From Bacillota bacterium (GTDB lineage: Bacteria > Bacillota > Sulfobacillia > JAJYWN01), in the NCBI GenBank assembly GCA_021791495.1, contig JAJYWN010000008.1, positions 34,307-98,306 on the forward strand: a stretch of 64,000 bases of DNA, in the 5' to 3' direction. Each line of letters opens with the position of its first letter. Within the stretch, counting starts at the first letter, position 1. A program made the translations under genes and the position numbers. Below are positions 55,452-63,847 of the stretch, piece after piece. Under the pieces are notes generated by a model. It was not told where the DNA came from. It did no database searches and saw only the letters and a list, made by a program, of their open reading frames with translations.

Positions 55452-56840
55452 GTGACCGCCATGACTCGTCCGTTGGCCCTGGTGCTGTCCGGCGCCGTAT
55501 CCCTGGGGGCTTACGAAGCCGGAATCGTCCACGAGATTTTGTTCGCCGCCCAGACGTCTTCACCCCGTTTGCGCATCGACGTCCTCAGTGGCTCCTCGGC
55601 CGGCGCCCTCAACGCCTGCCTGGCCGCTTTCTGCCTCCACACCGGGACCGATCCTGCAGTGCTCCGGCAAACCTGGGTGGACGATCTGGACATCATGCGG
55701 CTCCTTTCCCGCCCGGCCGGATTGCCGGGCCCCCTCACCTCCGTCTTCAACCCGGTGGAAGTACGCCGGATGCTACTGGACCACCTCCGGCCTGACCCGT
55801 CTCACGCCCCCGTGTCCTACCCCGTTTGGCTGGGCATTACCCGGACGGACCTGACCGGCCGGTCTCTACCATCGCCCCTTCCGGGTGACGACCTGGCCGT
55901 GACTTCTTTCGCCTCCCCGACCGCCTTCATCCTAGAACCGGCGTCGGCGGTGCCATGGGAGGAAATTGCCCGTTCGGCGGCGGCATCGGGCGCCTTTCCG
56001 GTGGCCGTGGAGCCGGAGCCTATCGGCGACAGGCGTTACGCGGACGGTGGAGTGCTGGACAATCGGCCCCTTCGCCAGGCCTTCGAGGGAGCCCGACGGC
56101 TGGACGGACCCGGCACCCAAGAAGCCCAGCTCCGGGTAGCCGCTGCCCCAGACGCGAGATCCATCACCATATACGCCGACGGGCATCATCCGCCATACCT
56201 GCTACCGTCAACCGATCGCGTTTACATCATGGTAGAACCAGGAGCTCCGCAACCAGTGCCAGGCGAACCGCCACGTGACCCCTTGGGGGTGGCGAGCCGC
56301 GTCATGGCCGCCTTGACCAATGACGACCTCTTGCGCGATTTACGGGATGCGGCGAAAGTGAACCGGCGCCTGAACGATCTGGCCGACCTGGCCCGCCAGA
56401 CCGGCATGCCTCCGGCTCTGGTCGAGCAGGTGAGGGCCGTGGCCGACCTGGATGGAAAGCGCAGCGCCAGCCTAGTCCGGGTTGCCCCGGATGACCCCGC
56501 GCGGGAGCTGGCGGGGGCTTTTCTGGGGCACTTCGGAGGGTTTCTGGAACGGCGTCTGCGGGAGCATGACTACCGCCTCGGCCGCGTCCACGGGCGGGCG
56601 TTCTTGGAGAGGATGGACGTGGGCTACACCAAGGCGGCGGCGAGCGAATACGCCTACGACAAGAGCCTGGATGGAGCCGGCTACAAGGACCTCACGGCCG
56701 ACGGGCGCCGGGCTCTGGCCAGGGCCATCGGCAACGCCACCGAGGCGGTGGTCGGTAGCCTGCGGCCCGGCGTGGCGAGGCCGGTCGGATGCGTCGCCTG
56801 GCTGCTAGCGCTCTGGCTCGTCCGAAGCCGAGCCCGATAA
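55452..56840 (+). CDS. Patatin-like phospholipase family protein
   Basis: VLSGAVSLGAYEAGIVHEI, IDVLSGSSAGALNA (GxSxG), YADGGVLDNRPL (DGG). Confidence 0.85.
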   Translation: MTAMTRPLALVLSGAVSLGAYEAGIVHEILFAAQTSSPRLRIDVLSGSSAGALNACLAAFCLHTGTDPAVLRQTWVDDLDIMRLLSRPAGLPGPLTSVFNPVEVRRMLLDHLRPDPSHAPVSYPVWLGITRTDLTGRSLPSPLPGDDLAVTSFASPTAFILEPASAVPWEEIARSAAASGAFPVAVEPEPIGDRRYADGGVLDNRPLRQAFEGARRLDGPGTQEAQLRVAAAPDARSITIYADGHHPPYLLPSTDRVYIMVEPGAPQPVPGEPPRDPLGVASRVMAALTNDDLLRDLRDAAKVNRRLNDLADLARQTGMPPALVEQVRAVADLDGKRSASLVRVAPDDPARELAGAFLGHFGGFLERRLREHDYRLGRVHGRAFLERMDVGYTKAAASEYAYDKSLDGAGYKDLTADGRRALARAIGNATEAVVGSLRPGVARPVGCVAWLLALWLVRSRAR

Positions 56841-57452
56841 GCGCCGGTCCTGGACGCCGTCATCATCGGCCGAGGCCGGCGCGTAGACCGAGTCGGCCCA
56901 CGTATACCGGGATAGCACCGTTATCCCATAACGGTACTGCCGGACCAGCACCAGAGGGCCAATCCGCTCGGGTAGGGCGTCGTCGCGGTGGTGCTGGACA
57001 AAGACGGTGGCTGACGGATTTAGGGGAGCCCGGTCCCCCAATGTCGCCAGGCGGTCCAAGGTGCGCTGGCACAATTCCCGCAAGTGCGGCGGGGCGACGA
57101 TGACCAGATCGAACGGGCCGGTCAGCTTCTGGCTGCCCAATACGCGCAGGACATCGCCCTGGATGATTTGGGCCCGGTCGGCCAGGTTGGTCCGCCGCAG
57201 GTTCTCGCGGATGACGCTGATCTGCCTGGGGTTCAGCTCCACCAGAGTCGCCCGCCGGGCGCCGCGGCTCAAGGCTTCCACCGAGTAGCTGCCGGTACCC
57301 GCGAAAAGATCGAGGAACGAGGCGCCTTCCACCGCTTCTTGAATGATGCTGAACAATGCCGCCTTAACCCGTCCCGTCGGTGGGCGAGTGAGGTCTCCTG
57401 GGAGAGATTTCAGGCGCATACCTTTGACTTGGCCGGCGATAACCCTGAGCAC
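56805..57452 (-). CDS. rsmD: RsmD-like 16S rRNA (guanine-N2)-methyltransferase with atypical motif IV
   Basis: LRVIAGQVKGMRLKSLPGDLTRPPTGRVKAALFSII, ASFLDLFAGTGSYSVEALSRGA, VELN; motif IV reads APPH. Confidence 0.82.
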   Translation of the reverse strand: MLRVIAGQVKGMRLKSLPGDLTRPPTGRVKAALFSIIQEAVEGASFLDLFAGTGSYSVEALSRGARRATLVELNPRQISVIRENLRRTNLADRAQIIQGDVLRVLGSQKLTGPFDLVIVAPPHLRELCQRTLDRLATLGDRAPLNPSATVFVQHHRDDALPERIGPLVLVRQYRYGITVLSRYTWADSVYAPASADDDGVQDRRLSGSASDEPER

Positions 57453-57698: not shown

Positions 57699-59057
57699 AT
57701 GGCTGGAAGCTACCAAGCGGAGCAATATGGGAGGATTAGCTTGACACCGAAAAGCCGTGTTAGTGTGGACCCCTTTGCCTTGCTGGACCAGGTCGCCGAC
57801 CGCCCCCAGGGCATGACCATCGGAAAGCGACTGGCCGATCTGAGCCGCCACTATGGAGTGAGCGACAGCACCATCCGGCGCCTCTACTATACCGCGCGCA
57901 AGGCTTTGGAAGACGGTATCGCCCACGACGAGGGACTGATACCGGGCCCGCCGGCCGCGCCCGGCGCGCTGGCGGCAACGCCAGTTACCGCCGCTGGTAC
58001 CTTACCGGCCGCTTCGTCGGCTCTGCCCGAGGCCGTTTCGTCAATGATACCGCCGGTGGTGGCCGGCGGACCCATTTCCACAGCCACGGTCGCCCGCGAA
58101 GAGGTCTGGGACATGGCCACGGCGCCGGCGCTGGTCGAACGGCAACTCTGGGACCAGGAAGCGCGGACCCGGCTGGACGACCTGGCGCGTACCTTGGCGG
58201 CGGCCTCCGTTGCGTTGGCCGAGTTGCCGAGGCTCCGGGCGGATAATCAGCGGTTGGCCACGGAGAACGCCCGATTGCAGGAAAGGGTGGAGTACCTGTC
58301 GGAAGAAGTGCTCCGCGCCCGCGAAGGCCAGCCTTCCACCGAGCCGGGACCCTACGCGCCCACACGGAAAGCCTTGGACACAAATGTCATCATCGACGGC
58401 CGTATTGTGTCGCTGGCAGGCGGCGGTTTCTTAGAAGGGACCATCATCGTCCCCGGTTTCATCCTAAACGAGATGAAGTATCTGGCGGACAGCAGGGACC
58501 CGGCGCGCCGTACGGCGGGCCGGCGCGGCTTGGACAACTTGCGGCTGTTGCAGGAGCAGAGCCGGATCCCCGTGGTGACCTGGGAAGACGAGGAGCAGCC
58601 GGGACGAGACCTGAATGTGGACAACCGCCTGCTCCGCTTCGTACAGCGGCTGGAGGCTACCTTGGTGACGAACGACCATAACCTGTGCCGCGTGGCCGAG
58701 ATCCAGGGCGTGGACTTCATCGACATCAACGCGCTGTACCGGGCCGCCAAACCGGTGGTCTCGCCCTTTGAGGAGATCTCTCTGAACATCGTGGAGGAAG
58801 GGAAGAAGCCGGAGCAGGGCGTGGGTTACCTTGAAGACGGGACCATGATCGTCGTCGACGACGCCCAGAGGCTCATCGGCCAGCGGGCCAGCGTCATCGT
58901 CACCCAGATCCTACCGACAACCTGGGGAACTATCGCCTTCGCCAAACTCAAGCCCACTCCGGGGGCGCCGGTGGCGGCGGGAGCGACGTCCGCACCCGCC
59001 GCTTACCAGGTCCAGCAGCCTCCTTACGAGCGTCAGCAACAAAGTCTGGGAAGGTGA
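57699..59057 (+). CDS. HTH-coiled coil-PIN-TRAM protein (PIN-TRAM like that of YacL)
   Basis: HTH-like IGKRLADLSRHYGVSDSTIRRLYYTARKAL; coiled coil; PIN LDTNVIIDGRI...GFILNEMKYLADS...LVTNDHNLCRVAEIQGVDFIDIN; C-terminal TRAM (EEGKKPEQGVGYLEDGTMIVVDDAQRLIGQRASVIVTQILPT). Confidence 0.82.
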   Translation: MAGSYQAEQYGRISLTPKSRVSVDPFALLDQVADRPQGMTIGKRLADLSRHYGVSDSTIRRLYYTARKALEDGIAHDEGLIPGPPAAPGALAATPVTAAGTLPAASSALPEAVSSMIPPVVAGGPISTATVAREEVWDMATAPALVERQLWDQEARTRLDDLARTLAAASVALAELPRLRADNQRLATENARLQERVEYLSEEVLRAREGQPSTEPGPYAPTRKALDTNVIIDGRIVSLAGGGFLEGTIIVPGFILNEMKYLADSRDPARRTAGRRGLDNLRLLQEQSRIPVVTWEDEEQPGRDLNVDNRLLRFVQRLEATLVTNDHNLCRVAEIQGVDFIDINALYRAAKPVVSPFEEISLNIVEEGKKPEQGVGYLEDGTMIVVDDAQRLIGQRASVIVTQILPTTWGTIAFAKLKPTPGAPVAAGATSAPAAYQVQQPPYERQQQSLGR

Positions 59058-59058
59058 G

Positions 59059-59646
59059 CTAGGAGGACAGTCGCGATGGTGTCCTCCGGGGAGGCAGAGG
59101 ACACTCCATCAAACAGCAATCCCTCATCTGTCCTTCGTACATCTCGTGGGCGGGCAGCAGGTGGGTCTTGCGGAATCCGGCTTTCTCGTAACACCGGATG
59201 GCCCGGGCGTTCCAGGTCTGGGGATCGACGATGGCCAGGGTAGCCTTCTTTTCTTCGGCCAGATATCGTAGCACAGTCCCGACGAGCCGCGCGCCAAGGC
59301 CGTGGCCCCACAGTTCAGGCTCGCCGATGAAAAGGTCCAGCCCATAGGCCGTCCGGTTTTCGCCTTGACCCCGGTCCGTTTCTATCCCTAACTCTTTCTG
59401 GCCGTCCGGACTCAATTGATAAAACTGCAGGTATCCAACGGGGCGCCCCTGCCACTCCACCAAGCACCTTACCTCATCGGTGGAGGCATCGTAGAAGACA
59501 CGGCGCACCATGGCTTCGTCGTGCGGGCGGTCGCGGCCCTCGTAGAATTGGAGGACCCTCGAATCCGAAAGCCAGCGCACAAGGAAACCGGCATCGCTTT
59601 CTCGTAATTCTCGAACCACGAGACCGGAGTCGTCTACGAGTACCAT
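59059..59646 (-). CDS. GNAT acetyltransferase resembling AAC(6')-type enzymes
   Basis: LVRWLSDSRVLQFYEGRDRP...YGLDLFIGEPELWGHGLGARLVGTVLRYL...VDPQTWNARAIRCYEKAGFRKTHLLPAHEMYEGQMRDCCLMEC. Confidence 0.85.
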   Translation of the reverse strand: MVLVDDSGLVVRELRESDAGFLVRWLSDSRVLQFYEGRDRPHDEAMVRRVFYDASTDEVRCLVEWQGRPVGYLQFYQLSPDGQKELGIETDRGQGENRTAYGLDLFIGEPELWGHGLGARLVGTVLRYLAEEKKATLAIVDPQTWNARAIRCYEKAGFRKTHLLPAHEMYEGQMRDCCLMECPLPPRRTPSRLSS

Positions 59647-63428: not shown

Positions 63429-63847
63429 TGAAGCACGAAGCGTGGAAATCCACTGGGAACTGCGTCTACGAGACATCGTATCACATTGTATGGTAAACGA
63501 AGTACCGTCGGAAGGTGCTAACTCCACCCGTTGATGTGGCGGCAAGAGACCTGCTGCAAGAGATCTGCGCTAAGCATGGCTACGAGGTGAAAGGACTGGA
63601 GGTGATGCCCGACCACGTCCACCTGTTCATCAGCGTTCCACCGGCCAGGGCGGTAGCTACCGCCGTGAAGCTCATCAAGGGTGCTTCGGCCCGGGTGCTC
63701 TTCGTGCGCCTTCCGGGGCTCAAGAAGCGGCTATGGGGCGGGCACCTCTGGAACCCCCCGTACTACGTCGGCACGGCGGGGCATGTCAGTAGTGAAACGA
63801 TCCAGCGGTATATCGAGCGCCAAGAAAAGGTGGCGGAGGAACAGTAG
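63429..63847 (+). pseudogene. tnpA: IS200/IS605 TnpA (Y1 HUH transposase) interrupted by in-frame TAA
   Basis: VKHEAWKSTGNCVYETSYHIVW*TKYRRKVLTPPVDVAARDLLQEICAKHGYEVKGLEVMPDHVHLFISVPP...SSETIQRYIERQEK; TAA at 63494-63496, same frame continues. Confidence 0.85.

Follow-up and report, generated by a model that had tools for sequence, protein, structure and literature searches.

Within the 64,000-nucleotide stretch of DNA analysed here (the window) lies a gene for a protein in which a predicted helix-turn-helix (HTH) domain, an Ala/Pro-rich linker and a coiled coil precede the PIN and TRAM domains of a YacL-type protein. The interpretation that we favour, with slightly more confidence than doubt, is that this gene encodes a lineage-specific, fast-evolving paralogue of YacL, whose membrane anchor has been replaced by the HTH domain, linker and coiled coil and which would act as an HTH-docked nuclease. 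In the material searched this layout appears to be unreported, and it rests on one genome, a MAG-like assembly of a deep-branching Bacillota-like organism.

Coding frame and N-terminal half

An earlier reading made from the sequence alone (the sequence-only reading) had described the listed open reading frame of 452 codons, and all five parts of the protein are encoded by this one continuous coding frame (Table 1). The TTG codon is probably a better start than the annotated ATG, because of the spacing of the GGAGG site in front of it and because codons 1-14 of the listed frame lack the GC3 bias of the gene (GC3 of 0.57; the HTH and coiled-coil parts have 0.77-0.81).

Table 1. Features of the HTH-PIN-TRAM gene and other genes in the window (positions counted from the first nucleotide of the window).
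Feature	Position	Strand	Basis or remark
Listed open reading frame, 452 aa	57699..59057	+	starts at ATG 57699
GGAGG Shine-Dalgarno-like site	57730..57734	+	6 nt 5' of TTG 57741; read from sequence
Probable true coding sequence, TTG start, 438 aa	57741..59057	+	Shine-Dalgarno spacing and GC3
Three-helix HTH domain	57771..57920	+	Pfam HTH matches; AlphaFold2; nearest Foldseek folds mostly HTH, none significant
Ala/Pro-rich linker, predicted disordered	57921..58121	+	pLDDT 34-50; composition
Helical coiled-coil region (residues 142-210), probable oligomerisation segment	58122..58328	+	predicted helices; heptad pattern
PIN nuclease domain	58362..58748	+	Pfam PIN_4; PDB 3ix7; columns invariant with YacLs
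TRAM domain	58788..58916	+	Pfam TRAM
rsmD-like gene	56805..57452	-	
GNAT acetyltransferase gene	59059..59646	-	
IS200/IS605-type transposase gene	63515..63847	+	

The N-terminal domain very likely has an HTH-type fold, as judged from profile matches and structure modelling. Nine Pfam HTH families matched the real fragment, whereas nine shuffles of it matched none; the best match, to HTH_IclR (E=0.0007-0.0009), lay just below its curated cut-off, seven other HTH models fell on the same residues, and no Pfam HTH model passed its curated cut-off on this fragment. AlphaFold2, run on the fragment as a single sequence without an alignment, predicted three helices (residues 11-19, 27-38 and 42-60 in the numbering of the 438-aa form) with pLDDT of about 91-93. 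When this model was submitted to Foldseek there was no match at a significant E-value (best E about 1.3), and the nearest solved folds were mostly sigma region 4, homeodomain, transposase and IclR HTHs, with TM-scores of about 0.4-0.64. A phmmer search of solved structures with the fragment gave weak matches only: one was to a designed helical barrel (E=0.0018), the other to a Mu-type transposase domain, 2ezk (E=0.17). The domain resembles small HTH domains of the IclR, sigma-70 region 4 and transposase types in its predicted three-helix fold and its weak profile matches, but differs from them in reaching the curated cut-off of no family. The sequence-only reading had proposed an HTH at this position, and both the Pfam models and the AlphaFold2 prediction point to such a fold, although the string that had been quoted for it omits the first helix (DPFALLDQVA).

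A three-helix domain could instead be a protein-protein or RNA-binding module, in which case the protein would be an ordinary soluble RNase with an interaction domain. We consider this unlikely but deserving of weight, since no HTH family passes its cut-off, none of the Foldseek E-values is significant, a short fold of three helices can serve many purposes and the net charge of the fragment is only +3; however, the best Pfam matches are all to HTH models, and the nearest folds belong mostly to DNA-binding domains. Conservation of the HTH domain is unusable as evidence of its function because there is no orthologue with which to compare it.

The linker and the coiled coil of the sequence-only reading were both recovered, the former from its composition and pLDDT and the latter as about 69 residues of confident helix between the linker and the PIN domain (residues 128-160 and 162-196 in the numbering of the 438-aa form; most pLDDT values 83-93), with a heptad a/d pattern that is better than that of 98% of shuffles. 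This segment probably makes the protein a dimer or oligomer. Residues 1-222 contain no hydrophobic segment or transmembrane helix, in agreement with the soluble N-terminus that had been claimed: the best 19-residue Kyte-Doolittle mean is 1.15, whereas by the same measure the YacL of the same genome reaches 2.44 and has several helices. Of 131 PIN-TRAM frames retrieved, all but three had at least two hydrophobic segments; the exceptions were one mobile-element copy, listed twice, and one probably truncated frame.

The PIN-TRAM core and the neighbouring genes

The C-terminal domains had been likened to those of YacL, and both pass their curated Pfam cut-offs (PIN_4, residues 226-342, 24.0 bits against 21.9; TRAM, residues 364-406, 23.3 bits against 21.0). 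The PIN part aligns with PDB 3ix7, the structure of Thermus thermophilus TTHA0540 (E=1.7e-28), and has kept both the acidic residues D227, E258, D308 and D326, which lie in columns invariant with the YacLs, and the TND motif. That these have been kept despite fast divergence argues for retained catalysis. In T. thermophilus, deletion of the YacL-type PIN-TRAM protein TTHA0540 left mRNA levels unchanged, and the authors doubted that TTHA0540 degrades endogenous mRNA (PMC4229858); RNase activity is therefore unproven even for the parent family.

The same residues bear on whether the protein might be a transcription regulator that recruited PIN-TRAM as a nucleic-acid-binding module, with no need for cleavage. 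Regulators commonly combine an HTH with a coiled-coil dimeriser, and the divergent neighbouring gene could be the target, but the four acidic residues and the TND motif have survived rapid divergence elsewhere and the region upstream of the gene contains no palindrome or inverted repeat, and we think this reading improbable. A promoter scan found nothing.

The gene has a divergent rsmD-like gene upstream and a convergent GNAT acetyltransferase gene downstream, and therefore stands alone, with no partner indicated. The rsmD-like gene is a second copy, as a canonical gpr/rsmD/coaD locus, in which the motif reads LDPPY, lies on a different contig (L165); in the window copy the (D/N)PPY motif is replaced by VAPPH, and VAPPY or VAPPH is also seen in rsmD-like copies of several further genomes of the class (L176-L179). 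A fixed functional pairing is not supported, because such altered-motif copies occur in class genomes where the HTH-PIN-TRAM protein was not found. The acetyltransferase resembles the AAC(6')-I aminoglycoside acetyltransferases (AAC(6')-Ie/Ian) at 175 bits, well below the 400-bit cut-off. VapC toxins likewise have a PIN domain, but are short, lack TRAM and are paired with an adjacent antitoxin gene; no adjacent antitoxin gene in an operon was found at the HTH-PIN-TRAM locus. Further along the window, the IS200/IS605-type transposase is apparently N-terminally truncated (it matches model positions 27-126).

Relationship to YacL and distribution

The presence of a classical YacL, which the sequence-only reading had proposed as a check, was confirmed elsewhere in the 4.2 Mb source genome: a membrane protein of 363 aa, adjoining ispD-ispF and a CarD-like C-terminus, with 49% identity to the HTH-PIN-TRAM protein over PIN-TRAM. 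Its retention suggests that the HTH-PIN-TRAM protein is an extra, fast-evolving paralogue. The paralogue shares with YacL-type proteins (Bacillus subtilis YacL; TTHA0540) a PIN domain followed by TRAM, the same acidic residues and about 45-50% identity over about 200 residues. It differs from them in having an HTH, linker and coiled coil instead of membrane helices, in lying away from carD/ispD/ispF, a neighbourhood that is absent at its locus, and in its far longer branch. In a tree built from 127 PIN-TRAM domains, its end branch measured 5.6 changes per column where the median was 0.12; a branch of this length could mean relaxed constraint. The protein joined Armatimonadota sequences in this tree, but the placing is unreliable and, because the end branch is so long, likely reflects long-branch attraction; in 201 Armatimonadota genomes no relative with the N-terminus was found among matches at E <= 1e-55.

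Neither the 154 genomes of the class nor the 399 of the phylum that were searched yielded a protein with the same N-terminus. Among the matches listed from these genomes, all begin at query residue 176 or beyond, in or near the PIN domain, and are YacL-like; the exceptions to this likeness that came up in a closer search of the class genomes matched only in TRAM or were short fragments. Where other genomes of the class had a second PIN-TRAM copy, it was a classical YacL, a fragment or a match to TRAM alone, with one mobile copy (L039, described below) as the exception. The best 80 loci in a GTDB-wide pattern scan all matched from residue 190 or beyond and none shared the N-terminus, a direct scan of contigs with the full-length protein yielded no relatives, and phages, plasmids and viral contigs gave YacL-type PIN-TRAM matches or nothing. 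When the HTH fragment was searched against the class, phylum and own genomes it matched itself and gave two weak matches, both rejected as relatives: L043 (E=0.006) is a tandem-repeat protein with an HTH at its end, and the frame of L044 (E=4e-4) is antisense to annotatable genes. The architecture that had been called unfamiliar was thus not found elsewhere in the genomes searched, and the protein therefore looks like a lineage-specific nuclease. The layout is possibly confined to one genome; because the source genome is the sole member of its family among those searched, orthologues may exist in unsampled relatives.

The single genome, the long end branch and the 4.24% contamination of the assembly would fit a fusion that arose by accident or is decaying and has no selected function, or else an artefact of assembly or binning, but this is very improbable given that the frame stays open for 438-452 codons, that GC3 is normal in both the HTH part and the coiled-coil part, that the catalytic residues are intact and that the tetranucleotide profile of the window matches that of the contig bearing the genome's YacL (r=0.97).

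Proposed mode of action and related proteins

If the protein is an HTH-docked YacL paralogue, the membrane-anchoring N-terminus of a YacL copy would have been swapped for an HTH domain, a flexible linker and a coiled coil. The coiled coil would then form a dimer or oligomer, the PIN domain would be a metal-dependent endonuclease, more likely acting on RNA, the TRAM domain would grip the substrate and the HTH would dock the enzyme on DNA, either on the nucleoid or at one specific site, and cleavage would thereby be aimed at nucleic acid near the docking site and not at the membrane. Stated more broadly, the protein is most likely a soluble, probably dimeric, metal-dependent PIN nuclease that would be anchored through its HTH to nucleic acid or protein. 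The domain order, the lost membrane helices, the kept PIN acidic residues and the co-existing classical YacL are read from sequence; that the protein dimerises, acts as a nuclease and binds DNA, and on which substrate it acts, is what we infer. The soluble nuclease or regulator with nucleic-acid recognition at both ends that the sequence-only reading had suggested is thereby supported in part. A bolder version, in which the HTH would bring a dimeric PIN-TRAM to particular DNA sites to cut nascent RNA or DNA, seems to us a long shot; if true, locus recognition and RNA cleavage would be linked in one polypeptide.

Most Bacillota and many other phyla have retained YacL, whose role is unsettled in the literature searched. 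A paralogue with a DNA-binding-like domain in place of the membrane anchor would make the PIN-TRAM core accessible to study as a soluble protein, and would put to the test whether the substrate of this core depends on its placement at the membrane or the nucleoid. Should cleavage be directed by the HTH, a single protein would link DNA recognition to RNA processing.

A short PIN-TRAM protein without membrane helices is encoded by an order relative (L039, 183-848, G038:C30), in a mobile-element-like region with integrase-, replication ATPase-like and HNH-like genes. Like the HTH-PIN-TRAM protein, it is a second copy in a genome with a classical YacL, but it has only about 29 residues before the PIN domain, with no HTH or coiled coil, and is 39% identical. 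PIN/TRAM proteins are also annotated in Clostridioides difficile plasmid records of roughly 100-150 kb.
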